This document shows positions 3,078 through 36,869 of a DNA stretch of 64,000 nucleotides, in pieces. The notes below the pieces were generated by a model. It had not been told where the DNA came from. It did not search any database and saw only the letters and a program-made list of their open reading frames with translations. The first letter of the stretch is position 1. The number at the start of each line of letters is the position of its first letter. Where the stretch lies: positions 116,307 to 180,306 of the forward strand of contig CAMYYD010000005.1 in NCBI GenBank assembly GCA_947303395.1, read 5' to 3'. Source of the stretch: an uncultured Bacteroidales bacterium. GTDB taxonomy: Bacteria > Bacteroidota > Bacteroidia > Bacteroidales > F082. A program made the translations under genes and the position numbers.

Positions 3078-4802
3078 GTGGAAACGCGCTGGATAATTGC
3101 AAAAGATGCAGATAAACAATTAGTTAAAAGCTTGTCGGAGTCGCTAGGCATCGACGAGATTTTGGCTACTTTGTTAGTTCAGCGTGGAATCACTAACTAC
3201 GAAGAGGCAAAAGATTTCTTTAGACCGTCGCTTGAGCACCTTCACGACCCATTTTTGATGAAGGATATGGACAAGGCTGTCGACAGGCTTCAAAAGGCTA
3301 TGAACGACGGTGAGAAAATCTTGATTTACGGTGATTACGACGTTGATGGAACCACCGCCGTTGCCTTGATTTACACGTATTTAAAGAATTTCGTCAACAA
3401 AAAGAAAATCGAGTTCTATATCCCTGACAGATATGAAGAGGGATACGGAATTTCATATAAAGGCATCGATTATGCCGCCGACAATGGTTTTGGCTTGGTC
3501 ATAGTACTTGACTGCGGCATCAAAGCTGTTGAAAAAATCGAGTATGCCAACCAGCGTGGTGTCGATTTCATCATTTGCGACCACCATCGTCCGGATGAAG
3601 TGATACCGAACGCTGTGGCTGTCCTCGACTCAAAACGTCCCGACTGCGAGTATCCTTACAAGGAACTCTCAGGTTGCGGTGTCGGTTTCAAGCTCATTTC
3701 AGCATTGTCGATGCGACTTGGCAGACCTATCGAAGAGGTTTACGAACTCCTTGATTATGTTGCAGTTAGTATCGCTGCTGATATTGTTCCAATCACAGGC
3801 GAAAACAGAGTTTTGGCATATTTTGGACTCAAGCAATTGAACAAGAACCCTCGTCCGGGAATCGCGGCAGTGCTTCGTCAGGCGGAACAGAAAAACGCGC
3901 TCGACAGAGAATTGACTATCAGCGACTTAGTGTTCCTCATCGGACCACGTATCAACGCTGCGGGACGATTGGAGAAAGCCAGCGACTCAGTAAGACTTTT
4001 GCTTGCAACCAACAGTGAGCACGCCGAGAAGTTGGCCGCAAGTATCAACGACCTCAACTCAAAGCGTCGTGAATTTGACAACGCCATCACCGAGGAGGCA
4101 CTGAAGATGATTGATGCCGACGAGAAGCTCCGCAACGCCAAGAGCACCGTGATTTTCAATGAAAACTGGCACAAAGGCGTTATCGGTATCGTTGCTTCAC
4201 GACTCACCGATTCTTATTACCGCCCGACAATAGTTTTGACACGTTCAGGTAACTTGATCACAGGTTCGGCTCGTTCGATTAAGAACTTCGATATCTACGA
4301 CGCCATCGACGACTGTTCAGATTTGCTTGAACATTTCGGCGGACACAAATACGCAGCGGGATTGTCGTTGAAGCCTGAAAATCTTGAGAAATTCTCGGAA
4401 AGATTTGAGAAATATGTCTCAGAGCATCTTGAAGACGACGATTTGACACCAGAGTTGAATGTCGACATCGAGATGGACTTCACGAACATCACTCCGAAGT
4501 TTGTTCGTATCTTGAAGCAGTTCGCTCCATTCGGACCAGGCAATTTGTCACCTGTATTCCTCACCAAGAACGTTGTTGACGCAGGATTCTCACGTGCTGT
4601 AGGCAATCGTAAACACTTGAAGCTCAGCGTGATGCAGCAAGGCAACACCGACTTTGTGTTTTCAGGCATAGCATTCCAGAAAGGCGATTTGTATGAACGG
4701 ATTCACGAAAAGGAACCGTTCACAATGTGCTATTACATAGAAGAGAATTTCTGGCAAGGAAAGACGTCGCTGCAGCTTAATGTCAAAGACATTAAGTTTT
4801 AA
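3078..4802 (+). CDS. recJ: Single-stranded-DNA-specific exonuclease RecJ
   Basis: DHH motifs: YGDYDVDGTTA, DCGIKAVEKIEYANQRGVDFIICDHHRP; GPRINAAGRLEKASDSVRLLL; FGGHKYAAGLSL; GTG start. Confidence 0.96.
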   Translation: METRWIIAKDADKQLVKSLSESLGIDEILATLLVQRGITNYEEAKDFFRPSLEHLHDPFLMKDMDKAVDRLQKAMNDGEKILIYGDYDVDGTTAVALIYTYLKNFVNKKKIEFYIPDRYEEGYGISYKGIDYAADNGFGLVIVLDCGIKAVEKIEYANQRGVDFIICDHHRPDEVIPNAVAVLDSKRPDCEYPYKELSGCGVGFKLISALSMRLGRPIEEVYELLDYVAVSIAADIVPITGENRVLAYFGLKQLNKNPRPGIAAVLRQAEQKNALDRELTISDLVFLIGPRINAAGRLEKASDSVRLLLATNSEHAEKLAASINDLNSKRREFDNAITEEALKMIDADEKLRNAKSTVIFNENWHKGVIGIVASRLTDSYYRPTIVLTRSGNLITGSARSIKNFDIYDAIDDCSDLLEHFGGHKYAAGLSLKPENLEKFSERFEKYVSEHLEDDDLTPELNVDIEMDFTNITPKFVRILKQFAPFGPGNLSPVFLTKNVVDAGFSRAVGNRKHLKLSVMQQGNTDFVFSGIAFQKGDLYERIHEKEPFTMCYYIEENFWQGKTSLQLNVKDIKF

Positions 4803-4858
4803 GTTGTTCAGTTATTCAGTTGTTCAGTTTAACTGATTAACTGGTTAACTGATTAACT
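4803..4858. repeat. Family B hairpin repeat: (CAGTTNNN)n arm facing (AACTGNNN)n arm
   Basis: gttgttcagttattcagttgttcagtttaactgattaactggttaactgattaact; 8-bp periodicity in both arms; fills the gap between convergent recJ and LysE-family genes. Confidence 0.85.
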
Positions 4859-12213: not shown

Positions 12214-13581
12214 ATGAAAGCAAAACTCACATATCAAATTATTCTTGCGATGGCGTTCATTGTCGTCATGACTTCATGCGAATCGCAAACGAGACGGGAA
12301 CAACGTGCGCGCGCTTTATATGAACAAGGTGTGCAGTTGCGTTCGCAACGTCTGTCCGAGGAGGCTACGGAATGTTTCCTCAAGGCATTATCATTGATGG
12401 ATAACGTTGAGACGCACGGCCGTGCGTCTCTGCAATTGCGCGCTAACATTAAAGACAATCTTGGCTCGATGTACAACAAACACCAGATGTTTGAAGACGC
12501 CTTGAATATGCACTGTGAAGCTGTCAACGACTTCAAACAGATTAACGACTCCGTTGGGATGATGACTGCTTGGCGCAACTGCGAGCGTGCCGCGAAATCA
12601 CTCGGATGGTTTGCGCAGACCAAACAATATTACGACAACGCCTTCCAAATCGCCATCTTATTAGATAATAAAGAAATGATTGCCGATTTATATCTCGAAA
12701 TCGGGCGTGATTATTATATGGAAATTGGCGATTATGAAAAGGCGATTGAATTTGTGCAAAATGCCATCAATGGCGGTATGGAGGGCAATGATTTGGACAT
12801 CGCCAACATGACTCTCGGCATTCTTTATTATTACATCGACGAAAACGACAATGCAAAACCATATCTCGAAAAGGCATTGCAGAGCGACAGGGCTGGAGTA
12901 AGAATGTCGGTTTATCAAACTCTTTACGGCATCGCGCTCAACGAGGAAAACCTCGAGATGGCAATGGAATACGAACAACTTTTCCTTGAGAATATGGCTA
13001 TTGCCGAAAAAGAGCACAACAACGAGAGCATCCAACGGATAAAATCGGAAAGCGAGCTGACTGCGCAGAAAAACGAGCTTGAGACCCTGCATCGTACCAA
13101 GAGCCTGAAACTTTATCTGATTATTGCGGTCGTTTTGCTTGGAAGCCTCACAATATTACTGATTGTCAGGAAAAGATTGACAGACAACAAGATAAAATCG
13201 CTTGAAAAGGAGCTTCAGATGCGCGACAAGGTTATGCTCAGCAGCAGCGTTTTTACTACGGCTAAGAACCTCGGCGAGCACCTTACAGCCGACGCACTCA
13301 ATTTCGACCTAAGCGATACCGACTGGGACGATTTTATAAGCATGACAGACTTGGTTTACGACGGTTTTTCTGAAAAGCTTCTCGCGAAGTTCCCTAAACT
13401 CACCCGAAACGACGTGCGCATCTGCTGCCTTACGAAAAACGGCTTCTCCAACCAGGTGATTTCGGTTTTGCTCGAAACGCAACTTGAATCATATTACAAA
13501 CGCAAAATGCGAATCAAACAGACGAAAATGGAACTCGCCGAAGATGCGAGGACTTTTGAAGAGATAATAAACACTATTTAA
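12214..13581 (+). CDS. Membrane-anchored TPR regulator with C-terminal HTH-like region (Bacteroidales type)
   Basis: Lipoprotein-like signal FIVVMTSCES, TPR repeats, TM LYLIIAVVLLGSLTILLIV, C-terminal LTRNDVRICCLTKNGFSNQVISVLL; the 20 aa before MKAKLTYQ are an ORF-track extension. Confidence 0.8.
   Translation: MKAKLTYQIILAMAFIVVMTSCESQTRREQRARALYEQGVQLRSQRLSEEATECFLKALSLMDNVETHGRASLQLRANIKDNLGSMYNKHQMFEDALNMHCEAVNDFKQINDSVGMMTAWRNCERAAKSLGWFAQTKQYYDNAFQIAILLDNKEMIADLYLEIGRDYYMEIGDYEKAIEFVQNAINGGMEGNDLDIANMTLGILYYYIDENDNAKPYLEKALQSDRAGVRMSVYQTLYGIALNEENLEMAMEYEQLFLENMAIAEKEHNNESIQRIKSESELTAQKNELETLHRTKSLKLYLIIAVVLLGSLTILLIVRKRLTDNKIKSLEKELQMRDKVMLSSSVFTTAKNLGEHLTADALNFDLSDTDWDDFISMTDLVYDGFSEKLLAKFPKLTRNDVRICCLTKNGFSNQVISVLLETQLESYYKRKMRIKQTKMELAEDARTFEEIINTI
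12409..12430. repeat. Family A palindrome, copy 1 (GAGACGCACGGCCGTGCGTCTC), in frame inside the TPR regulator CDS
   Basis: 22-bp perfect palindrome encoding ETHGRASL. Confidence 0.95.
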
Positions 13582-13582
13582 A

Positions 13583-14473
13583 ATGAAAAATATATTACAT
13601 CTGACTCCTATCTTCATGTTATTATTGGTAACTATCACCAGCTGCAATAAATCCTCCAATAACATCGAGCCGCAACCATCGGTTGTTACAGACTTCACCA
13701 TCGACAGCTTAAACTATCGTGTCAACGACGACGGCTCAACTGTGACCGTCACCGGTCATGTAAGCGGAGAATTTGCTTATGGCGATTTGTTAATCCCTGA
13801 AACGGTGTCGTATGACGGCAAAAACTACACCATTACGGTTGTCGGCGACGAGGCTTTCGACGGATGTTGGGGACTCTCTGGCAATCTGAGTATCCCAAGC
13901 ACAGTAACTAAAATCGGCGAAAACGCTTTCAGTTATTGTCAATTTACAGGTTGTCTGGATTTGCCTGGTAACCTCACTTACATCGGTGACCACGCATTCG
14001 CGTATTGTCAATGGATGAGAGGGGCTCTGTATATACCCGATTCAGTAACATATTTGGGCGAAGGCGCTTTCAGTGGATGTATGAGCTTTGACGGCACTTT
14101 GCACATTTCAAGAAGCATAACTTCTATCAAAAAAGGCACTTTTGACTGGTGTCAACAATTAATCGGTACTCTATACATACCGAATTCTGTCACTGAAATC
14201 GGCGACTGGGCATTTCAGGGCTGTTATAGATTTACCAGCTATTTGGAAATTCCTGAAGCAGTAACATATATCGGCGAAAGTGCTTTCTCGGGATGCACCG
14301 GGTTCTCTGAAGTCATTTCCCTCGCCACCGAGCCGCCAACATTAAGAAGTGATGCATTCCCATCCGATGTTTACTCAACACTCACAATTCCTTGCAATTG
14401 CACCTATCAATACCAACATTCACCTTGGTATCTGTTTTTTGACACTATTATTGAAGATTGTGATAAAAATTAA
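13583..14473 (+). CDS. BspA-like leucine-rich-repeat (LRR_5) lipoprotein
   Basis: Lipobox TITSCNK; repeats such as LSIPSTVTKIGENAFSYC, LYIPDSVTYLGEGAFSGC. Confidence 0.92.
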   Translation: MKNILHLTPIFMLLLVTITSCNKSSNNIEPQPSVVTDFTIDSLNYRVNDDGSTVTVTGHVSGEFAYGDLLIPETVSYDGKNYTITVVGDEAFDGCWGLSGNLSIPSTVTKIGENAFSYCQFTGCLDLPGNLTYIGDHAFAYCQWMRGALYIPDSVTYLGEGAFSGCMSFDGTLHISRSITSIKKGTFDWCQQLIGTLYIPNSVTEIGDWAFQGCYRFTSYLEIPEAVTYIGESAFSGCTGFSEVISLATEPPTLRSDAFPSDVYSTLTIPCNCTYQYQHSPWYLFFDTIIEDCDKN

Positions 14474-14485
14474 CCATTTTATACT

Positions 14486-16030
14486 ATGAAAACAAAAAAT
14501 TCTATCAATTTTTTAATTAAAAACGCGGCATTTTTGCTGCTTGCGATTATTCTTATTACAAGTTGTAAAAAAGACAAAATCGACAATGGTTCTGGAAACG
14601 AGCCTATCCCGGAAGAGCCTGGTATCGCTATCACCAATCCTCTTTGCTTTACAGCCGAAGAAGACCGTGTTTCAATAGAAATTTATGTGCGCGAAGATTG
14701 CGAAACAACGTTTGATTTTGAGTATAGTTATGACAATGTCGAGTGGAACCGGTTTATTCCCAATTATACGATTATTGTTTTGGCAGAAGCAGGTGAAAAA
14801 GTTTATTTCAGAGGTCATAATCCACAAGGACTTAGTCCGAACCATGATGTTTTTGATGAAGAAACTTTCTATTTTTGGGGTCCATGTGCAAAATTTGTGA
14901 CAAATGATAAATCGGTTGCTTTAAGCGGAAATGTGATGTCGTTGATTGACACGGTTTACAGGGCTACAAAACCTCTGCCGAAAAGCTGTTTTGCAGGTCT
15001 GTTTGAATATACATCGGTAACATCTGCGCCTGAGCTGCCTGCCACATTATTAAGCGAGTGTTGCTATACACACATGTTTTCTCTTTGCTCGAAACTTGTA
15101 TCAGCTCCAGAGTTGCCGGCAACAGTTTTGACGAAACATTGTTATTCCGATATGTTTGCCAATTGTTCGAGTATGACAGAAGCTCCTGAACTGCCTGCCA
15201 CCACCTTGGCAGAATACTGTTATAAATACATGTTCGGTTGCTGTAGTTTTACCACCGCACCTGAATTACCTGCAACTACAATGAAAGAGAACTGTTATAG
15301 GAGTATGTTTAGTGGCTGTACAAGTCTTGAAGCAGCACCGGAACTGCCTGCAATGACTTTGGCTGAGAATTGTTATTATGATATGTTTTGGGGCTGCCGT
15401 TTCGAAACAGCTCCGCGGCTTCCTGCCACCACTTTGGCTAATGGATGTTATTCGTGTATGTTTACAAACTGTCCGAATCTGACAACAGCCCCTGAATTGC
15501 CTGCCACTAATTTGGCTGATTATTGTTATACGAATATGTTTGCATATTGTGATAATCTTACCGAAGCTCCGAAACTACCGGCGACGACCCTTGCAGAATA
15601 CTGCTATTACGCAATGTTCAACTTTTGTAGGAGTCTCATTACACCACCTGAGCTTCCGGCTACGGAGTTGGCTGCGTATTGCTACAGTTTTATGTTCCAA
15701 GCTTGTAATAACATGACATCTGCTCCCGAACTACCCGCTACAACATTGGCTCCTTATTGCTATGAAGTTATGTTTGATATGTGTAGTGAAATTACTGCAG
15801 CACCTGAACTGCCGGCGACTACTTTGGTCGAAGGCTGTTATATTGCCATGTTTAGCAACTGTGACAAAATAAACAGCGTCAGGGTGCTTTTTACTGAATG
15901 GAACGATGAGGCGACAGACTGGTGGTTTGGCGACACCAATAGTTATGGTACGTTTTACTGCCCAAGTTCGCTGCCTCAAGATTTCGGATGCAATAGAATT
16001 CCAACAAATTGGACGGTCGAGACTCTCTAA
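14486..16030 (+). CDS. Surface lipoprotein with 11 tandem ~26-aa APELPATTLAxxCYxxMFxxC repeats
   Basis: Lipobox IILITSCKK; repeat array translated from 15023-15874. Confidence 0.9.
   Translation: MKTKNSINFLIKNAAFLLLAIILITSCKKDKIDNGSGNEPIPEEPGIAITNPLCFTAEEDRVSIEIYVREDCETTFDFEYSYDNVEWNRFIPNYTIIVLAEAGEKVYFRGHNPQGLSPNHDVFDEETFYFWGPCAKFVTNDKSVALSGNVMSLIDTVYRATKPLPKSCFAGLFEYTSVTSAPELPATLLSECCYTHMFSLCSKLVSAPELPATVLTKHCYSDMFANCSSMTEAPELPATTLAEYCYKYMFGCCSFTTAPELPATTMKENCYRSMFSGCTSLEAAPELPAMTLAENCYYDMFWGCRFETAPRLPATTLANGCYSCMFTNCPNLTTAPELPATNLADYCYTNMFAYCDNLTEAPKLPATTLAEYCYYAMFNFCRSLITPPELPATELAAYCYSFMFQACNNMTSAPELPATTLAPYCYEVMFDMCSEITAAPELPATTLVEGCYIAMFSNCDKINSVRVLFTEWNDEATDWWFGDTNSYGTFYCPSSLPQDFGCNRIPTNWTVETL
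15023..15874 (+). repeat. Coding tandem repeat array: 11 units of 25-26 aa, two invariant Cys positions per unit
   Basis: Units aligned by eye: SAPELPATLLSECCYTHMFSLCSKLV ... AAPELPATTLVEGCYIAMFSNCDKIN; 284 codons. Confidence 0.92.
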
Positions 16031-16047
16031 ATAAAATTCATTAAAAC

Positions 16048-18021
16048 ATGAAAAAATTATTCTTAACAAGCTTTATTATTCTGGCAGTAATTACAAAAAT
16101 AATCGCCCAGACCTTCATCGACAGAAACCTGAACTATTCCGTTAACGACGACGGCGCTACAGTGACATTAACTGGTTTTATTGATCGTTATCAAGATTTG
16201 ATAATACCCGAATCAGTAAATTATGAAGGACAAGACTATCCTGTCACTGCAATAGGAAATCGTGCCTTTCATGATTATTGGTGGGATCAGGATAGCTTGG
16301 TCATTCCTAATACAGTGACACATATTGGCTACAGTGCCTTTGCTCCATATCCTCATATAAATGGTAAAATAATATTGTCAAACAACTTGACATATATTGG
16401 CGCTGGCGCTTTTAATGGGAATGGTTTTAACGGGGAATTGGTTATTCCGAACACGGTCACATATATTGGTAATCTGGCTTTTTGTGGATGTGGCGGAATT
16501 ACCGGTGATTTGGTTATCCCAAATTCAGTTGAATATTTAGGTATACGTGCCTTTGAGGGATGTAGGGGCATTAAAGGTTCATTAACTATATCAAATTCAA
16601 TTGACACCATTCGTGAGGGCACTTTTACAAATTGTAAATTTACTGGAGAATTAATCATACCTAATTCTGTGAAATTCATTGATAAAAAAGCATTTTGGAG
16701 TTGTAATGGCTTTTCGGGTGATTTGAGAATCCCAAATTCGGTAAATCATATCGGCGAGGAGACTTTTTTCCAGTGTACAGGTTTTGATGGCAATTTGATT
16801 CTTCCTGATTCTATTGCGGAAATAGGGAGATTGGCATTTGGAGGTTGTAGCGGTTTGACAGGACCATTAAATATACCCGTAACATTAACTCAAATAAATG
16901 ACCAAGTGTTTGCTTATTGTGGTTTTACAGGTCCTTTAATTATTCCGGATTCCGTTACATATATCGGGGATGGTGCATTTGTTGAATGTCGTGGTTTCAG
17001 CGGTGACTTAGTTATCGGAAAGTCTGTAAAATACATTGGTTTATATGCTTTTGGATATTGTCCAGGCATTACTAATGTGGTGTCATTGTCAACAGAACCG
17101 GCGGAAGCCTATTATAACGAATTTGAACACCTTGACTGCACAACGCTTTCTGTCCCTTGCGGTTTTATTCAGGCATACTATTATGCCGGATGGCTTAGGC
17201 ATTTTACAACAGTAAATGAAAACTGTAGCTATCTGACACATCCTGAATGGTATTATGAATTAATAAACGATTCAGGCGACATCACTTATCAGTACCTTTC
17301 GCATCAGGGCGATACGACAATTCAACATAAAAAAGTTAAGATTATCGTGAAAACCAACACTCTTTACGATAAGGAAAGCATTGAACAGACCGAGGAATAC
17401 ATTTATGTTGACGACAATAAGGTTTACTGGTGGAACAAAACTCTCGAGGAATTCACTGTTTTATATGATTTCGGCGCACAAGTCGGCGACTATTGGGAAA
17501 TCAAGGCTGGTCTGAACTCGATAGTGGTTCACGTAGATATGGTTGGACAGGCTGAATATGATGGTATTGTCTATAAAACCTTGCAAATCGGCGATTATGA
17601 TGACATTTTCAGTGGCACGATTGTCTGCACGGTAGGTCATCTCACCAGCTTCTTCCCCGAGAAAATGCTCGACAACAAAGGCAATTACGAAGTCAATGGC
17701 TTGCGTTGCCACTGGAATAACGGCGAACTTCTCTTTAAGGTTGGCGATACCGACTGCGACTATGTCTATGATAATCATCATTTTGACGTAGATGAAATTG
17801 CCGAAAACGGATTTGAGGTTTATCCTAATCCCTCACATGAGAACATATTTGTCCAATCGGATAAAATAGAAGAGAAATATCGCATTCTCAACCTTCTCGG
17901 CGAATCCATCCTAACTGGCATAATTTCGTCTGAAAATCAACAAATCGATATCTCATCGTTATCCGAAGGCATTTATTTCATAACCATCGGCAATGCGACA
18001 ATGAAATTCATGAAAATGTAA
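16048..18021 (+). CDS. BspA-like LRR_5 surface protein with T9SS C-terminal sorting domain
   Basis: LRR_5 repeats (LVIPNTVTYIGNLAFCGCGG etc.); C-terminal VYPNPSHENIFVQ...LLGESILTG...ISSLSEGIYFITIGN. Confidence 0.92.
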   Translation: MKKLFLTSFIILAVITKIIAQTFIDRNLNYSVNDDGATVTLTGFIDRYQDLIIPESVNYEGQDYPVTAIGNRAFHDYWWDQDSLVIPNTVTHIGYSAFAPYPHINGKIILSNNLTYIGAGAFNGNGFNGELVIPNTVTYIGNLAFCGCGGITGDLVIPNSVEYLGIRAFEGCRGIKGSLTISNSIDTIREGTFTNCKFTGELIIPNSVKFIDKKAFWSCNGFSGDLRIPNSVNHIGEETFFQCTGFDGNLILPDSIAEIGRLAFGGCSGLTGPLNIPVTLTQINDQVFAYCGFTGPLIIPDSVTYIGDGAFVECRGFSGDLVIGKSVKYIGLYAFGYCPGITNVVSLSTEPAEAYYNEFEHLDCTTLSVPCGFIQAYYYAGWLRHFTTVNENCSYLTHPEWYYELINDSGDITYQYLSHQGDTTIQHKKVKIIVKTNTLYDKESIEQTEEYIYVDDNKVYWWNKTLEEFTVLYDFGAQVGDYWEIKAGLNSIVVHVDMVGQAEYDGIVYKTLQIGDYDDIFSGTIVCTVGHLTSFFPEKMLDNKGNYEVNGLRCHWNNGELLFKVGDTDCDYVYDNHHFDVDEIAENGFEVYPNPSHENIFVQSDKIEEKYRILNLLGESILTGIISSENQQIDISSLSEGIYFITIGNATMKFMKM

Positions 18022-18102: not shown

Positions 18103-19057
18103 GTAAATTTAACACGATTTTCTCAATGCTGATGCCTTCAGCTTGAGCGGTGTAGTTACGAACTAGGCGGTGTCTCAAAACAGGCACTGCCACTTTTTTC
18201 ACGTCTTCGATGTCGGGTGAGAACTTGCCGTTCATCAGGGCGTTGGCTTTGGCACCGATTATGAGATACTGCGAAGCACGAGGACCCGCACCCCAGCTTA
18301 AGTATTTATTTGCCAACTCGCTACCACGCTCGGTGTTTGGGCGAGTCTTGGAAACGAGATTTACTGCATATTCGTAAACGTTGTCAGGCACTGGCACGCG
18401 ACGCACCAGCTGCTGGAAATACAAAATTTCCTCAGCATTCATCACAGCCTCCACCTTATTATTAATAGCGGCAGTGGTGTTCTTCACGACAGCGATTTCC
18501 TCTTCGTATGAAGGATAATCGAGCATGAGGTTGAACATGAAACGGTCGAGCTGAGCCTCAGGAAGCGGATATGTCCCTTCCTGTTCGATAGGATTCTGCG
18601 TGGCAAGCACGAAGAACGGCTCGCTCAGCTTATATGTCTTGCCGGAAACAGTGACGTTTTTCTCCTGCATAGCCTCGAGCAAGGCAGCCTGAGTCTTAGG
18701 AGGCGTACGGTTGATCTCGTCAGCAAGGATTATGTTAGCAAAAACAGGGCCTTTCACGAATTTAAACTGACGCGACTCATCCAAAATCTCGGTTCCGACG
18801 ATATCGGAAGGCATGAGGTCAGGGGTGAACTGGATACGGTTGAAGCTCAAACCAAGTGCTTGTCCTATTGTGTTGATTAACAATGTCTTGGCAAGACCAG
18901 GAACACCAACCAGCAACACGTGACCCTGACAGAAAATCGACAAAATGGTATCGTGAATCACCTCGTTTTGTCCGATGATGACTTTTCCGATTTCTTTTTT
19001 TAAAGAATTATATTTTTCAACAAGGGCTTTTGCGCCTTCAACATCGTTACTATACAT
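18098..19057 (-). CDS. MoxR-family AAA+ ATPase
   Basis: GHVLLVGVPGLAKTLLINTIGQALGLSFNRIQFTPDLMPSDIVGTEIL, ILADEINRTPPKTQAALLEAMQE, FVLATQNPIEQEGTYPLPEAQLDRFMF. Confidence 0.95.
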   Translation of the reverse strand: MYSNDVEGAKALVEKYNSLKKEIGKVIIGQNEVIHDTILSIFCQGHVLLVGVPGLAKTLLINTIGQALGLSFNRIQFTPDLMPSDIVGTEILDESRQFKFVKGPVFANIILADEINRTPPKTQAALLEAMQEKNVTVSGKTYKLSEPFFVLATQNPIEQEGTYPLPEAQLDRFMFNLMLDYPSYEEEIAVVKNTTAAINNKVEAVMNAEEILYFQQLVRRVPVPDNVYEYAVNLVSKTRPNTERGSELANKYLSWGAGPRASQYLIIGAKANALMNGKFSPDIEDVKKVAVPVLRHRLVRNYTAQAEGISIEKIVLNLL

Positions 19058-19140
19058 AGTTGTTCAGTTATTCAGTTGTTCAGTTGTTCAGTTATTCAAT
19101 TGAGTAGTAAAAACTGACTAACTGAATAACTGATTAACTT
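19058..19140. repeat. Family B hairpin repeat (copy 2)
   Basis: gttgttcagttattcagttgttcagttgttcagttattcaa...aactgactaactgaataactgattaact. Confidence 0.85.
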
Positions 19141-19144
19141 CTAA

Positions 19145-20500
19145 CTATTCTCTAAGATTCCAGTCAAATTTAAAATCGCAGTCTTTATAGTCGTCGCAGA
19201 TTTTCACGTAGGCCTTGCTTGACTTCGAGTCAATCCATTTGTTGATAGCTTCCTGGCGAAGTTTCTGCATTGTCCATTGCTGAATCAGGGCATAATCTTC
19301 TTGCAGATTTGCCTTGTGTGGAGTGGTTTTCTTTTTGATTATCAATAATCTATATGCGTCTTTATCGTTTTTAGTCTTCATCGGGACAGGGTTGCTCACC
19401 TCACCCACTTGAAGCTTGTTGACGACCACCGAGACCTGCTGGTCGAGATCTTCTGCAGCGAACAAAGTGCTGCCGTCGTTAGGATTCACGAGATAACCTC
19501 CGTTGACTTTATCGTCCTCGTCGCTGAATTTCACCACGGCTTCATCGAAGGTGATGCTGTCGTTTCTGATAAGGTTGGCGATAGAGTCAAGTTCGTTATA
19601 AGCTTGCTGTAACGCTTCCGGCGACACTTTCACCGTGAGCAGGATATGACGCACGTTGACGTAATCGCCGCGGCGTTCAATCAATTGCAGGATATGAAAA
19701 CCATACTCTGTTTCAATGACTTCCGAGATCTCACCGTCTTTCAAGGCAAACGCCGCGGCTTCAAACTCCGGCACCAATTCGCCTCTGCCCTGGAAACCAA
19801 GCTCGCCGCCTTTCTTTGCGGAACCTGGATCTTCGGAATAAAGCAACGCCAATGTTGAGAAACGTTCGCCTTTCAAAATTCTGTTGCGCAAACCATAAAG
19901 TCTGTCTTTCACCGCAAGTTTTTCGTCGAGAGTGATTGGCGGTTTCTTAACCAGCTGCGCTATCTCATAGTGCGCACTGACCATCGGAACGGAGTCTTTC
20001 GGAATGCTGTTGTAAAACTCACGCACGTCGCTTGGAGTCGCGCTGACCCCCTCAACGATCTTGCGCTGCACCTCGTCGATGAGTTTCTGGTCTCTTATTA
20101 TGGTACGAAGCTCATCCTTGATCTCCTTCATTGTCTTGTTGAAATATTTTTCAAGCTTCTCCTGCGATCCAAGCTGATTTACGTAATAACGGATGCGGTA
20201 TTCCATCTCCTGATCAACCTGATCATCGGTAACCTCGATACTGTCGAGTTCGGCCTGATTCAGCATAAGCTTGCGGAAAAGCTGGTCTTCAAGAATCTCG
20301 CAGCGTATCGACGAAGCGCTTCCCTTGATGCCGCCCTGAAGCCTATATTGCATATATTGCTCCTCAATGTCCGACTGCATGACGATATTTTTACCCACAA
20401 CAGCCACGACCTTATCGATAACCTGCGCCTGTTGAGCATATATCGTTGAAGCACAAATAGTTACAAAAACAAATAAAGCAAAAATCTTTCTTAGCTTCAT
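19145..20500 (-). CDS. surA: SurA-like periplasmic peptidyl-prolyl isomerase
   Basis: VIDKVVAVVGKNIVMQSDIEEQ, two parvulin domains (GERFSTLALLYSEDPGSAKKGGELGFQGRGELVPEFEAAAF; VRHILLTVKVS). Confidence 0.9.
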   Translation of the reverse strand: MKLRKIFALFVFVTICASTIYAQQAQVIDKVVAVVGKNIVMQSDIEEQYMQYRLQGGIKGSASSIRCEILEDQLFRKLMLNQAELDSIEVTDDQVDQEMEYRIRYYVNQLGSQEKLEKYFNKTMKEIKDELRTIIRDQKLIDEVQRKIVEGVSATPSDVREFYNSIPKDSVPMVSAHYEIAQLVKKPPITLDEKLAVKDRLYGLRNRILKGERFSTLALLYSEDPGSAKKGGELGFQGRGELVPEFEAAAFALKDGEISEVIETEYGFHILQLIERRGDYVNVRHILLTVKVSPEALQQAYNELDSIANLIRNDSITFDEAVVKFSDEDDKVNGGYLVNPNDGSTLFAAEDLDQQVSVVVNKLQVGEVSNPVPMKTKNDKDAYRLLIIKKKTTPHKANLQEDYALIQQWTMQKLRQEAINKWIDSKSSKAYVKICDDYKDCDFKFDWNLRE

Positions 20501-21024: not shown

Positions 21025-23024
21025 TTATAGTTTTTTCTGACTTTTTCCAAAACTTTCTCGTCAACTGTGACAGGATATTTTGCCTTGAGAGCTTCCAGCC
21101 AATCGTTTTCGAGTTTTGTCTGATAAGCTGAGGTGATTATACCTCTAGCCTCTCTATAGGTCTTCGGCTCTGGCTCGCGAACCTCAAGAATCTTGACGAT
21201 TTTCGTCGATTTGTCGACTGTTGAAGGAATTACGCGGATTGTTCCGGCAACCCATTCTGTTTCGTCGATGTCGACATTATCGCCCTGCTGGAAATATGGA
21301 GACTTGATTGTGACGCCTTTCAAACCTTCGCTTTTCACGATGGCTTTCAAGCTGTCGGCCTTCAAATCCTGACGAATCAGTTCTTCCATTCTTGGGAGAC
21401 TTTCCTCGTTATTGACGTTGACCAAAATGGTTTTCACGCGTTTGCCCCACATATATTCATTCTTGTTGGCATCGTAAAATGCTTTGATGCCCGCTGTGTC
21501 AAGTTCGGCTTTTTTCCAGACTTCCTTATCCATCAAGTCGAAGAGAAGGATGCCGTCGTGATATTCCTGAACGAGAAGTTTGAAGTCAGGATATTTTTCC
21601 TCAAGATGAGCGTCTTCGTAAGCAAATGCTGACTCTTTCAAGAATTCGCCATAAAGCTGGTAGGCGTATGAACCCTCCGACATAAATGGCTGTGACGACT
21701 CGTTTTTCTTGATATATTCAACAAAATCTGAGATTTTATAATTTTGTTTTTGCAATTTGAAGAGAACCTGATTCTGGTCAACACCTTCAGCCACAACATA
21801 TTTTCCTTCTTTCAAAGTAGTGTCGATTGTTGCGATGAAAGCATCTTTAACCTTTGTGTATTCCTTGAATTTATTCTCTTTCAGGATACGTTTCAGCACC
21901 ACTTCCTCGCTGACCTTTGCGCGCATGTCTTTTTCGACGCGTTTTTTGATATTTTCTCTTTCTTCATCAAGACTCTTAACGCCTGATTTTGAAACAAGTT
22001 TGATGATATGATAGCCATAGCTGGTCTTAACCGGCTCTGAAAACTCATTTTCGTTCAGTGTTTTAACTACAGCGATGAATTCCGGAACAATCTGACTGAC
22101 TTTGAATGGAGTAAGCATGCCGCCATGCTGTGCGCTGCCTTTGTCGTCGGAATATTTTTTAACGATGACATCCCAGTTTGTGCCGTCTTTGTTGATTTCG
22201 TTATAGATGTTAAATGCTTTAGCTCTCACGACTGAGTCGGTCTTTTCAGGATCGTTTTCGTCGACGACGAGGAAGATATGAGCGGCTTTGATCTGTCCGC
22301 AAGCCGGAGTTTTCGAGTTGAGTTTGATGATATGATAGCCGAAATCGGAGCGTACCGGCATTGAAACCTCGCCTTCTTTGGTGTTGTAGGCGCCGCTTTC
22401 AAACGGATAGACCATATCGAAAACCGAGAAATATCCAAGATTTCCGCGGTTACCTTTGTAGGCGCGCTGTTTGCCAGGTATAGCTTCCATATCGCGTGCT
22501 GAAGGATCTTCAGAAGCCTCGACGGCTACATCGCCGAAGTCTTCGCCATTCATGATGCGTTTACGAAGCTCGAGAGCTTTATTGTAAGCCTTGAGTGTAT
22601 CGGCCGGCACAGCGTGAATGTCGCATTTGATAAGGATATGCGATGCGTTGACATCCCACTGCATCCTCTCATAAGCCTCTTCGATGAGCTGTTCGGTGAT
22701 AGCGTCGTTTGTGAAATAAGGTTTGGCAAGCTGTTTGCGATAGCCTTCATATTCTTTGATGAACTTTGGAAGAGTATCCATCTTACGTGCTTCAGCCTCA
22801 ATGACTTTCAACTTGAAGTTGATATACATGTCGAGATATTCGTCGACATTTTTCTTGTCGAGGACTTCGCTCTTCACGTTGTTTTTCTCGTAAACTTCCA
22901 TGAATTCACCTGCTGAGATTTTATTATCTCCCAAGGTTATTAAAGTCTTTGATTTCCAACCCTGAGCAAAGAGGAGGGCTGGGGTCATTAATGCTAATAA
23001 AACTAATAATTTCTTCATTTTCAA
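21021..23024 (-). CDS. PpiC/parvulin-type peptidyl-prolyl isomerase
   Basis: NASHILIKCDIHA...GEDFGDVAVEASEDPSARD...GNLGYFSVFDMVYPFESGAYNTKEGEVSMPVRSDFGYHIIKL; second domain AAHIFLVVDE...GSAQHGGMLTPFKVSQIVPEF. Confidence 0.92.
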   Translation of the reverse strand: MKMKKLLVLLALMTPALLFAQGWKSKTLITLGDNKISAGEFMEVYEKNNVKSEVLDKKNVDEYLDMYINFKLKVIEAEARKMDTLPKFIKEYEGYRKQLAKPYFTNDAITEQLIEEAYERMQWDVNASHILIKCDIHAVPADTLKAYNKALELRKRIMNGEDFGDVAVEASEDPSARDMEAIPGKQRAYKGNRGNLGYFSVFDMVYPFESGAYNTKEGEVSMPVRSDFGYHIIKLNSKTPACGQIKAAHIFLVVDENDPEKTDSVVRAKAFNIYNEINKDGTNWDVIVKKYSDDKGSAQHGGMLTPFKVSQIVPEFIAVVKTLNENEFSEPVKTSYGYHIIKLVSKSGVKSLDEERENIKKRVEKDMRAKVSEEVVLKRILKENKFKEYTKVKDAFIATIDTTLKEGKYVVAEGVDQNQVLFKLQKQNYKISDFVEYIKKNESSQPFMSEGSYAYQLYGEFLKESAFAYEDAHLEEKYPDFKLLVQEYHDGILLFDLMDKEVWKKAELDTAGIKAFYDANKNEYMWGKRVKTILVNVNNEESLPRMEELIRQDLKADSLKAIVKSEGLKGVTIKSPYFQQGDNVDIDETEWVAGTIRVIPSTVDKSTKIVKILEVREPEPKTYREARGIITSAYQTKLENDWLEALKAKYPVTVDEKVLEKVRKNYK

Positions 23025-23040
23025 TTTAATCTAAATTATT

Positions 23041-23120
23041 CGGTTAATCAGTTAGTCAGTTAGTCAGTTAATCAGTTGTTCAGTTAACTGGCTAACTGAA
23101 TAACTGAACAACTGGTAACT
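23041..23120. repeat. Family B hairpin repeat (copy 3)
   Basis: cggttaatcagttagtcagttagtcagttaatcagttgttcagttaactggctaactgaataactgaacaactggtaact. Confidence 0.85.
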
Positions 23121-27715: not shown

Positions 27716-28549
27716 ATGAAAACTCCTAATTATCTTAAAAAAGGCTCGAAGATTGCGCTCGTGGCGCCGGCGAGGAAGATTGAGCGCGATGAGATTGCCG
27801 CGGCAGTGAAATGGATTGAAGAAAAAGGCTTTGTGGCTGTTTACGACGACCGCTTATTCGCTGAGTATCACCAACTTGCAGGTGATGATGACTTTCGTGC
27901 CAGCGTGTTGCAAGATTATCTCGACAGAGATGACATCGATGCGATTTTGTGCGTTCGTGGCGGCTACGGAACCATCCGTATTGTTGATAAACTCGACTTC
28001 AAGAAGTTTGAAAAACATCCGAAATGGATTGTCGGATATAGCGACGTGACGGTGCTGCATGCCAAGATGCAACAGCTTGGTTATCAAAGCATTCATGGAA
28101 CGATGGCAATAAATTTCGAAAAGAATACACCAGAGGCACTGGAATCATTATATGATGCATTAACAGGAAAATGGAACGCCGTAGAGACGCACAGCCGTGC
28201 GTCTCTACACAACGTTCCAATCATTGGCGGAAACCTTTCTGTTCTCTATTCAATGTTGGGTTCCGACCTGTTTCCGGAAACGGATGGAAAGATTTTGTTT
28301 ATTGAGGATTTGGACGAATATCTTTATCACATCGACCGCATGATGATGGGACTGAAACGCGCTGGAAAACTGGCAAATCTGAAGGCTTTGCTGGTCGGAG
28401 CGTTCACCGACATGCACGACAATACAATCCCATTCGGCATGACAGCCAAAGAAATCATTTTCGAGAAAGTGAAAGAATACGGATATCCAGTTATTTGGGA
28501 TTATCCAGCGGGACATGTGGATAATAACCTCGCAATAGTGCTCGGTTAA
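27716..28549 (+). CDS. ldcA: Muramoyltetrapeptide (LD-) carboxypeptidase, S66 family
   Basis: LKKGSKIALVAPARK, AILCVRGGYGTIRIVDKLDF, WIVGYSDVTVLH, SIHGTMAINF, IIGGNLSVLYSMLGS, LFIEDLDEYLYHIDRMM; carries an in-frame family A palindrome. Confidence 0.93.
   Translation: MKTPNYLKKGSKIALVAPARKIERDEIAAAVKWIEEKGFVAVYDDRLFAEYHQLAGDDDFRASVLQDYLDRDDIDAILCVRGGYGTIRIVDKLDFKKFEKHPKWIVGYSDVTVLHAKMQQLGYQSIHGTMAINFEKNTPEALESLYDALTGKWNAVETHSRASLHNVPIIGGNLSVLYSMLGSDLFPETDGKILFIEDLDEYLYHIDRMMMGLKRAGKLANLKALLVGAFTDMHDNTIPFGMTAKEIIFEKVKEYGYPVIWDYPAGHVDNNLAIVLG
28172..28219. repeat. Family A palindrome, copy 2 (GTAGAGACGCACAGCCGTGCGTCTCTAC, 28181-28208) with outer TGGAACG/CGTTCCA arms, inside the ldcA-like CDS
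   Basis: 28-bp core with one central asymmetry (acaGCc); encodes VETHSRASL in frame. Confidence 0.93.
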
Positions 28550-28551
28550 TT

Positions 28552-28626
28552 ATCAGTTGTTCAGTTAATCAGTTGTTCAGTTGTTCAGTTAAACTAGTCA
28601 ACTGATTAACTGATTAACTGAATAAC
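28552..28626. repeat. Family B hairpin repeat (copy 4)
   Basis: atcagttgttcagttaatcagttgttcagttgttcagttaaactagtcaactgattaactgattaactgaataact; between convergent ldcA-like and radA, encoding the radA stop. Confidence 0.85.
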
Positions 28627-29987
28627 TCCTTGAAAAGTTGCCCTATCGTTGCAATCGGCACAACTTTTATTTTGAATTTGCTGGTATCGAGACCTTTGAC
28701 GCTGTATTTCGAGACGAAAATCTTGTCGAAACCGAGTTTGTCGGCTTCCGCGATGCGCGCTTCCACCCTATTAACGGCTCTGACTTCACCTGAAAGTCCC
28801 ACTTCGGCTGCGAAAGCGCAACGACCATCGATGGCGACATCCTCACTCGACGACAAAACCGCCGCCATCACTGCGAGATCCATGGCAGGGTCGTCAACAC
28901 GAAGGCCGCCGGCGATGTTCAAAAACACGTCTTTTGCTCCTAGACGGAAACCAGCACGTTTTTCGAGAACCGCCAGAAGCATGTTCAACCTTCTGATATC
29001 GAAGCCTGTACTCGACCTCTGAGGCGTTCCGTATGCCGCCGAGCTCACCAATGCCTGCGTCTCGACAAGCATCGGGCGCAAACCTTCAACCATGGCTGCG
29101 ATAGCGATACCGCTGACAGCTGTCTCACGCTGCGAAAGCAAGATTTCACTAGGGTTTTTGACCTCTCTCAGGCCTTCAGCGTTCATTTCGAAGATTCCGA
29201 GTTCTGACGAGGAGCCGAAACGGTTTTTCACCGTTCTTAAAATCCTGAAACCATAGTGTCGGTCGCCTTCAAACTGAATAACCGTATCTACGATATGCTC
29301 CAAAATCTTAGGTCCGGCGATGGTGCCGTCCTTGGTGATGTGACCGATTAAAAACACCGGAATATGCAATGATTTCGCAATCTTGTTCATCTCAGCCGCC
29401 GTCTCACGAATCTGACTGATGCTTCCTGCTGTCGCTTCCACTGAAGGCGACTCCAAGGTCTGAATCGAGTCGATAATCATGATGTCGGGCATCACATCTT
29501 TGACATGTTTCAAGATGTTTTGAGTGTCGGTTTCATTGAGTATCAAACAGTTATCGTTTTTTATCCCGATTCTGTCGGCACGCATTTTTATTTGCTGTTG
29601 ACTTTCCTCACCCGAGACATAAAGCACCTTTTTATTATTAAGATGCAGCGCCATCTGCAGCAGCAAGGTCGATTTTCCGATGCCAGGCTCGCCGCCAAGA
29701 AGCACCAGAGAACCCGGGACAAGTCCGCCGCCCAGCACGCGGTTCAGCTCTTCGTAACCCATATCAATACGCTCCTCCTGAGCGCTTGTTACCTCACGAA
29801 TTGGAGTCGGCTTGCTTTTAAAGCTTTGAAAATCAACATCTTTTGAAACGGATTTACTGTCTTTTCCTGTGACAACCGTTTCTTCTACGTAACTGTTCCA
29901 TGCTCCGCAACCAGGGCAATGTCCGATCCATTTCGGAGACTCATTACCACATTCTTTGCAGAAAAATACCGTTTTAGTTTTTGACAT
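28614..29987 (-). CDS. radA: DNA repair protein RadA
   Basis: Zn finger FFCKECGNESPKWIGHCPGCGAWN, LLGGEPGIGKSTLLLQ, VLYVSGEES, KNRFGSSSELGIFEM. Confidence 0.97.
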   Translation of the reverse strand: MSKTKTVFFCKECGNESPKWIGHCPGCGAWNSYVEETVVTGKDSKSVSKDVDFQSFKSKPTPIREVTSAQEERIDMGYEELNRVLGGGLVPGSLVLLGGEPGIGKSTLLLQMALHLNNKKVLYVSGEESQQQIKMRADRIGIKNDNCLILNETDTQNILKHVKDVMPDIMIIDSIQTLESPSVEATAGSISQIRETAAEMNKIAKSLHIPVFLIGHITKDGTIAGPKILEHIVDTVIQFEGDRHYGFRILRTVKNRFGSSSELGIFEMNAEGLREVKNPSEILLSQRETAVSGIAIAAMVEGLRPMLVETQALVSSAAYGTPQRSSTGFDIRRLNMLLAVLEKRAGFRLGAKDVFLNIAGGLRVDDPAMDLAVMAAVLSSSEDVAIDGRCAFAAEVGLSGEVRAVNRVEARIAEADKLGFDKIFVSKYSVKGLDTSKFKIKVVPIATIGQLFKELFS

Positions 29988-35753: not shown

Positions 35754-36869
35754 TTATTGTAGAGACGCACGGCCGTGCGTCTCTACAATTTTTCTGTACT
35801 GACAAACCTGCAGTTTCCCATCGCCATCGCGGAGATGGAAGCCGTTGCCGAGACAGTAGCGCCACATTTTGCATTTGGCGCAGTCGTCGGTTTTCATCCA
35901 CTGGTGGTCGCGGTATTTTTCAAAACGATTTTGCCAAACGTCCCAGAAACTGTCTTTATAGATGTTTCCCTGATGGTAGTCGGCGCGTATGCTCAGGCAG
36001 CCTGAGATGGAGCCATCAGCAAGGATTGAGGCCACGTTTATGCCCGCGCTGCATGAATAATAATGATTTCTGACCTCGCCTTCGTATCTTCCGAGGAAGC
36101 CGTCGCAGCCGTAATCAGCACGGATTCTGCTTTCTTGACGTGTTTGCTTGATGAATTCGAGCATCTCGACGAACTGCTCGTTCGAAAGCTGCAAATCATG
36201 GTCGTTAACGGCACGTCCGGAAGGGAAAACAGTAAACAACCGCCAGCGTTTGATTCCCAATGAAATCAAAAACTCTTTAAATTCAGGCAGATATTTTATT
36301 GTTCTTTGATTGACGCAAGTGATGACATCCCACGTCAAACCAGGGTGTTGTTTCATCGCTTCAACTGCAACAAGTACATTCTTGTAACTCAATGAGTTAC
36401 CGCGCATCCAGTTATGGTCGTCTTCATATCCGTCGAAGCTCACGGCTATTGATTTTAAACCGTTTTTTACATATTCGTCGAGTTTTTCTGGGGTGAGAAG
36501 CATGCCGTTGGTAACCATACCCCAGACGAAACCACGTTTCGATATTTCAAGTCCGCATTCAGCAAGGTCACGGCGCATGGTAGGCTCGCCACCGGTGGTG
36601 ATGACCATCACATTCGACGGGTCTTCATGAAGCTTTATCTCATCCAAAACCTTGAGAAAATCAGCCAAAGGCATGTCGTTTTGCTCAGAGAGCATGCGGC
36701 AGTCGCTGCCACAATGACGGCAGTTGAGGTTGCATCTTAAAGTGCATTCCCAGAAAAGCTGATGTAGCTCGTGTTCCTCCGTACGCTGCTGGAGGTTGAC
36801 ACGATTGAGCTCAAGTCTTACTCGCTTGTTAAAACCGAGTTTATTGTTTCTTTGGCTCATCTTTGCCAA
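35754..36869 (-). CDS. Radical SAM/SPASM protein, probable rSAM/lipoprotein-system enzyme
   Basis: WECTLRCNLNCRHCGSDC (CxxxCxxC), TGGEPTMRRDL, SPASM-like GCLSIR...CAKCKMWRYCLGN...C; last residues VETHGRASLQ come from a family A palindrome. Confidence 0.88.
   Translation of the reverse strand: MAKMSQRNNKLGFNKRVRLELNRVNLQQRTEEHELHQLFWECTLRCNLNCRHCGSDCRMLSEQNDMPLADFLKVLDEIKLHEDPSNVMVITTGGEPTMRRDLAECGLEISKRGFVWGMVTNGMLLTPEKLDEYVKNGLKSIAVSFDGYEDDHNWMRGNSLSYKNVLVAVEAMKQHPGLTWDVITCVNQRTIKYLPEFKEFLISLGIKRWRLFTVFPSGRAVNDHDLQLSNEQFVEMLEFIKQTRQESRIRADYGCDGFLGRYEGEVRNHYYSCSAGINVASILADGSISGCLSIRADYHQGNIYKDSFWDVWQNRFEKYRDHQWMKTDDCAKCKMWRYCLGNGFHLRDGDGKLQVCQYRKIVETHGRASLQ
35757..35788. repeat. Family A palindrome, copy 3 (TTGTAGAGACGCACGGCCGTGCGTCTCTACAA, 32-bp perfect)
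   Basis: Perfect palindrome between convergent OMF and radical SAM genes, flanked by A/T runs. Confidence 0.97.

Follow-up and report, generated by a model that had tools for sequence, protein, structure and literature searches.

Among the short palindromic repeats described in bacteria, the GTAG REPs are the closest to the element reported here: they are dispersed palindromic repeats of 20–40 bp with a terminal GTAG, occur as several sub-families per genome, are in some cases intragenic and in frame, and include families in Cyanobacteria and Chloroflexi (PMC3733652, PMC2817692). For Bacteroidetes, only CGTC repeats are listed (PMC3733652). In GTAG REPs, the GTAG occurs at just one end, as a tag that lies beyond the stem and does not pair, most copies are extragenic, and in the complete REPtron the RAYT (Y1) gene is flanked by the same repeat. 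REPINs, which are also short non-autonomous palindromic mobile DNA, consist of a pair of REP hairpins in inverted orientation with a spacer between them (PMC3116915). The mode of working of the Rickettsia palindromic elements (RPEs) is comparable as well, with palindromes lying in frame in numerous genes that are unrelated to each other, where the additional peptide is tolerated. RPEs are longer (about 45–150 bp) and have a fixed sequence per family; to our knowledge, constant arms with exchangeable cores have not been described for them. The intragenic RPE-4 and RPE-6 of R. conorii have been equated with CGTC repeats (PMC3733652). Finally, mutation by quasipalindrome template switching is well established; in it, hairpin-templated synthesis perfects imperfect palindromes (PMC7202029).

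The 28-bp palindrome that we analysed has a GTAG end and a length within the range of the GTAG REPs and, like RPEs, is inserted in frame in genes of which some orthologues carry it and others do not. Unlike in GTAG REPs, however, its GTAG pairs with a terminal CTAC at the base of the stem, about 32 of the 50 copies in its own genome (some 60%) lie inside long ORFs, and the Y1 gene of that genome is bordered by a different repeat; it is further set apart by constant arms, a variable core and the absence of RAYT linkage. It is a single hairpin rather than a REPIN, and it lacks the target-site duplication of MITEs (298 copies). Quasipalindrome events act within one palindrome, whereas here the core of another copy would need to be copied in. 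We think that the palindrome is a widespread non-autonomous mini-element with interchangeable cores that are exchanged at fixed sites, probably by templated copying through the arms, and we give this reading a probability of roughly 0.55. The literature search found no description of a GTAGAGACG/GAGACG repeat, the GTAGAGACG string is absent from the running text of PMC3733652, and the openly readable main text of the literature yielded no family whose arms are constant and whose cores are exchangeable.

The palindrome in the window and its architecture

The window, i.e., the whole stretch of 64,000 nt that was analysed, contains the 22-mer GAGACGCACGGCCGTGCGTCTC at 12409–12430 (copy 1), which lies within a coding sequence and is translated in frame as DNVETHGRASLQLR in a TPR protein, in agreement with a previous sequence-only reading of this DNA. 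The two further copies that it had announced were also found, at 28184–28205 (one mismatch) and 35762–35783 (exact); they are translated as AVETHSRASLHN in an LD-carboxypeptidase and, on the minus strand, as ...YRKIVETHGRASLQ* at the extreme end of a radical-SAM/SPASM protein, all three copies using the VETHGRASL frame. Dinucleotide shuffles of the window gave 0 copies, none being expected by chance. The full units and their host genes are collected in Table 1.

Table 1. Palindrome copies and their host genes in the window.
Feature	Position	Strand	Details
Copy 1, full 28 bp	12406–12433	.	Left arm 12406–12414 GTTGAGACG; core 12415–12424 CACGGCCGTG; right arm 12425–12433 CGTCTCTGC
TPR protein gene P0001, 455 aa	12214–13581	+	VETHGRASL at residues 65–73 from copy 1
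Copy 2	28181–28208	.	Left arm 28181–28189 GTAGAGACG; core 28190–28199 CACAGCCGTG; right arm 28200–28208 CGTCTCTAC
LD-carboxypeptidase (Peptidase_S66) gene	27716–28549	+	Copy 2 read VETHSRASL, between N- and C-terminal domains
Copy 3	35759–35786	.	Left arm 35759–35767; core 35768–35777 CACGGCCGTG; right arm 35778–35786; between convergent gene ends
Radical-SAM/SPASM protein gene	35754–36869	-	Copy 3 supplies the final 10 codons (VETHGRASLQ)

In the TPR protein, a TPR unit (residues 32–63) directly precedes the peptide, and in the LD-carboxypeptidase the peptide falls between the Pfam domains S66 (to residue 128) and S66C (from residue 169). Three of the four radical-SAM/SPASM orthologues examined stop at about ...QYHKI, before copy 3, which is thus past the conserved protein end and is not inserted internally but constitutes a C-terminal tail or an intergenic copy between convergent genes. 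Copy 3 forms only a 10-residue tail of its protein. The TAG proposed for one frame of the full palindrome does not occur in copy 1 itself, which reads GTTGAG and so has no TAG in any frame. The palindrome of ~22–32 bp that had been described is real, but its unit is of 28 bp, GTAG...CTAC, with sharp edges.

Across the 40 contigs (2.42 Mb) of the own genome, a relaxed pattern search revealed common arms with differing centres. The unit is modular, formed by GTAGAGACG, a self-complementary core that is 10 (or 11) nt long and CGTCTCTAC, which gives a symmetric palindrome of 28 bp (sometimes 29 bp) that folds as a single hairpin; conservation falls sharply outside GTAG and CTAC. Cores in this genome include CACGGCCGTG, TACGGCCGTA, CAAAATTTTG, CGCCATGGCA, TTTCCTGAAA, CGATTCATCG, ATGTGCACAT and GATGCAAATC, and about 50 places whose core is 10 nt long were gathered by the pattern searches. 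A few additional places have cores of another length: under strict arms, 29 places are found if the gap is left free and 19 if it is fixed at 10. When gaps of 0–30 nt were allowed in 60 genomes, the arms were 10 or 11 nt apart in 70 of the 75 places listed (counted by hand); the 11-nt core type is dominant in the genome G017 and common in G015. Among 302 non-redundant copies with exact arms, 174 have perfectly palindromic cores, compared to an expectation of about 0.3, and 276 have cores that pair at ≥4 of 5 positions; only 42 of the 1024 possible perfect cores are used. The idea of a REP-like palindrome that is dispersed and at the same time serves as coding sequence is supported. The modular nature of the family, with constant arms and many cores, was missed by the sequence-only reading, to which just three copies of one type were available. 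The arms contain GAGACG/CGTCTC, the recognition sequence of Esp3I/BsmBI; a cassette of this kind was considered and dropped as coincidence.

The window also holds other repeats. Intergenic arrays of an 8-nt unit (TTCAGTTG / AACTGATT) are present at 4797–4858, 19047–19146, 23023–23120 and 28550–28627, as inverted blocks downstream of genes that could form long hairpins, and periodic repeats of leucine-rich-repeat type with a 72-nt spacing are found in neighbouring genes at 13887–16988.

Arrival in genes, reading frame and distribution

Comparison with relatives, mostly metagenome-assembled genomes, shows that the genic copies were acquired. The TPR orthologue with 93% protein identity carries the same insert and another, with 83%, is without it; the copy is identical in G011 and absent from G031, in which the site has equal length with different residues (net 0). 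The AnmK, RecD-like, C3:202822 and LdcA sites likewise have in-frame inserts that only part of the orthologues carry. An ancestral protein motif can be ruled out by these absences together with the palindrome at DNA level. The clean insertion assumed by the sequence-only reading is not general. At 26 intragenic sites compared with orthologues in G011, G031, G015 and G017 (G005 at some), empty sites are 0 to 36 nt shorter than filled ones, with net gains of +15 nt at the RecD-like site (4/4 relatives agree on the empty state), +15 nt at the AnmK site (3/3) and +21 nt at C3:202822 (3/3), none of them reaching +28. Such variable gain rules out a clean 30-bp insertion as a general rule and implies that native codons are replaced, or lost after arrival. 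No direct repeat of ≥3 nt indicative of target duplication exceeded shuffles in 298 copies.

Repeats of other families were seen in the same kind of positions. A third coding repeat, GTCATTTCGA(C/G)CG...GTGGAGAAATCTC (read SSFRPKRSGVEKSP), is found in loops where the own genome has the GAGACG palindrome, at the LdcA, PrmC-like and RibD-like sites of G011, G031 and G017 (loci L181, L184, L185 and L199). At the DHOase loci L220, L221, L223, L226 and L227 of congeners there is a repeat of another family, GGTCCCTGAGCCTGTCGAAGGGCC, which is translated as PEPVEG or as the complement of that reading.

Concerning the reading frame, the genic copies of the own genome are read about 25 times as VETxxxASL versus 7 times as CRDxxxxVST, a raw ratio that is inflated by homologous sites counted repeatedly and becomes about 18:7 after collapsing these by hand. 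Among the matches listed, the ratio is 43:24 in independent GTDB and viral loci (P=0.03) and 20:12 for non-viral GTDB copies. The preference for VETxxxASL is a moderate bias and not a rule: the CRD frame occurs in 7 genes of the own genome, which rejects a strict same-frame rule, and essential genes, MurB and DHOase among them, are read in it. The frame bias from which the sequence-only reading had suggested selection or tolerance is real, but partial and weaker than stated there. In the family-A version, the CRD frame encodes two cysteines, which may explain the preference, and selection could be acting on the encoded peptide.

The palindrome is not restricted to this genome. All 35 same-genus genomes searched have copies (2–71 strict), a strict copy is present in 41 of 297 genomes spread over Bacteroidota, and at least 12 phyla are represented among the matches listed, e.g., Bacteroidota, Cyanobacteria, Spirochaetota, Planctomycetota and Patescibacteria. 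The matches listed in the genome scan, some of them isolate genomes, comprise records labelled Bacteroidota, Cyanobacteria, Spirochaetales, Anaerolineae, Balneolia, Desulfuromonas, Desulfamplus, Methylococcales, Zixibacteria, Cloacimonadota, Planctomycetaceae, Acidobacteria and Moranbacteria. Certain cores are common to several phyla: the non-Bacteroidota phyla have 15 distinct perfect cores and Bacteroidota 18, and 5 cores occur in both sets, against an expected 0.26 (P=2.5e-6). Palindromes were also seen on phage contigs (L392, L393, L394, L407, L413 and L462), in L392 between structural genes, and five viral loci have pairs 1857 bp apart. An insertion sequence bounded by two palindromes was considered for these pairs and rejected, for phage structural genes and no transposase are inside.

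Core differences at homologous sites and their possible origin

An unexpected result came from an all-against-all comparison of 483 elements by their 150-nt flanks, in which sites were taken as homologous when both flanks aligned. This gave 26 homologous sites with at least two copies, and in 11 of them the cores differ at ≥5 of 10 positions. The differences are bimodal, with 54 pairs at 0–2, 3 at 3–4 and 31 at ≥5. Moreover, swapped pairs have on average 0.48 off-consensus arm bases in common versus 0.14 for random pairs, i.e., 3.5 times more often (P=0.0005, from few sites and with non-independent pairs within sites). Both results are what discrete replacement of the core within inherited arms predicts, and not gradual drift. 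The DHOase site, with three core types, illustrates this situation. It reads GGTAGAGACG, CACGGCCGTG, CGTCTTTACAAATTATGAT in G011 and GGTAGAGACG, CGCCATGGCA, CGTCTTTACAAATTATGAT in G031, with identical arms that include the off-consensus CGTCTTTAC and 1 of 24 right-flank bases differing, whereas the two cores disagree at 7 of their 10 bases (P=3.9e-6); G000, G015 and G005 have CGATTAATCA, CGATCAATCG and CGATTCATCA, respectively. In the LD-carboxypeptidase, the core of copy 2 is CACAGCCGTG and that of the G031 orthologue is CGCCATGGCA. Two paralogues of the own genome have the arm TTGTGAGACG in common and the cores TTTCAGGAAA and TGCCATGGCG; related copies in G011, G015, G017 and G031 have cores like TTTCAGGAAA, in a few cases with a single altered base, and hence one of the paralogous copies would have changed its core. 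A core that is swapped while arms and surroundings stay unchanged between related species suggests that centres are exchanged in place.

Two further loci were noted. Downstream of AnmK (L160, L161, L162 and L018), four species have the cores CCATGTTATGA, TTTCAGGAAA, ATAAAAACAT and CAAAATTTTG at an apparently common, intergenic site, with most pairs aligned on one flank only. The GH3 gene of G011 (L148) contains two palindromes nearly back to back (VETFPETSQNTSRETFQETSLQ), and in the own genome there is a single one with another core.

The differing cores might instead reflect independent arrivals at insertion hotspots, that is, at tolerant loops, without any exchange in place. The DHOase loop of more distant congeners does hold the unrelated repeat CCTGAGCC...GTCGAAGGG, read PEPVEG, so that this loop receives more than one repeat family, and other repeats occupy several loops in relatives. 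Different REPs have also been reported at about one recB site in two Xanthomonas species, so re-use of a site is not wholly new (PMC3733652). We nevertheless regard such repeated arrival as unlikely to explain the swaps in general, although it may account for some sites, because of the off-consensus arm bases in common (few sites, as stated above) and because, in the clearest cases, the flanks show no difference as far as the arms. Much less probable still is that selection maintains the palindrome as a nucleoid site or as the operator of a DNA-binding protein, in which the core would be a spacer that is tolerated. The dyad symmetry of fixed length would suit a dimeric DNA-binding protein, but the core is self-complementary and limited to recurrent types, copies in unrelated genes are gained and lost between close relatives, and most of the Bacteroidota genomes (all but 41 of 297) are without a strict copy.

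A different objection is that the palindrome could be a classical GTAG REP/REPIN on which a RAYT/Y1 transposase acts in trans by cutting hairpins of single-stranded DNA, the copies being ordinary transposition products. GTAG starts the palindrome on both strands, and TnpA-REP enzymes use this tetranucleotide (PMC8266576); the own genome has one Y1_Tnp gene (C4:25636–25971), and within the genus the number of palindromes correlates, albeit weakly, with that of Y1_Tnp genes (Spearman 0.44, P=0.007). However, this gene is bordered by different repeats of GTAGCGTATCTTCGATACGC type, and the 40 Y1 neighbourhoods of relatives (133 kb) contain only 3 palindromes, each more than 1 kb away and at about the estimated background density. 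Furthermore, Y1_Tnp is absent from the same-genus genomes G005, G015, G017, G031 and G035 (82–99% estimated completeness), yet they hold 5–25 strict copies, whereas genomes with 4–6 Y1 genes have 0–1 copies, and no correlation was found outside the genus. On balance, ordinary RAYT transposition seems improbable to us. The prediction of a Y1/RAYT-like transposase flanked by the same palindrome did not hold, since there is no linkage around 41 Y1 genes. In the surroundings of the Y1 genes, no terminal repeats common to the palindrome and an autonomous transposon were seen. As a separate observation, on contig C4 of the own genome (L066, 3483–3600 and 4080–4230) the IS200-like Y1 transposase is located between the repeats GTAGCTCTGCGAGGCCCCCAGAC... 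and GTAGCGTATCTTCGATACGC, and with these repeats of its own it looks like a true REP–RAYT unit.

Returning to core exchange through the arms, the palindrome is probably a GTAG-REP/RPE-like element in which template switching replaces the core. New copies would appear at new places, in this genome inside ORFs for ~60%, and genic ones would persist if their frame is open and if they fall at a protein terminus, in the stretch separating two domains or in a loop that tolerates them, with the cysteine-free VETxxxASL being favoured. Arrival would replace or trim native codons, with no fixed length added and no target duplication. At an occupied site, the core would be exchanged for another while arms and flanks stay: the nascent strand may switch via the common arms to another copy or hairpin, copy its core and switch back, after which hairpin-templated correction would restore the symmetry of the palindrome. 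Symmetric core changes such as CACGGCCGTG/TACGGCCGTA would be due to hairpin-templated synthesis of this type. Short-homology copying of the same kind might also seed new sites. We put forward only tentatively the complete proposal, in which the constant arms are homology handles, cores are exchanged in place, new copies overwrite short stretches of genes and template switching operates with no dedicated transposase in a dozen or more phyla. Arms of 9–10 nt are shorter than homologous recombination usually needs, which counts against the exchange of cores, and the template switch would have to take place between separate copies. The main alternative is a possible enzyme, e.g., a Y1 transposase acting in trans or since lost.

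Meaning for the biology of short palindromes

In the usual picture, REPs have a fixed sequence, are mostly extragenic and are moved by a RAYT. A family spread across a dozen phyla with constant arms, a set core length, interchangeable core sequences and mostly genic copies does not fit in it. In addition, the palindrome rewrites loops of enzymes, e.g., DHOase and MurB. Exchange events are naturally marked by which core an orthologous site carries, and the spread of short palindromes thereby becomes testable. If cores are truly exchanged in place by template switching, we think that this would be a new kind of mobile palindrome and a continual source of in-frame replacement of loop peptides.
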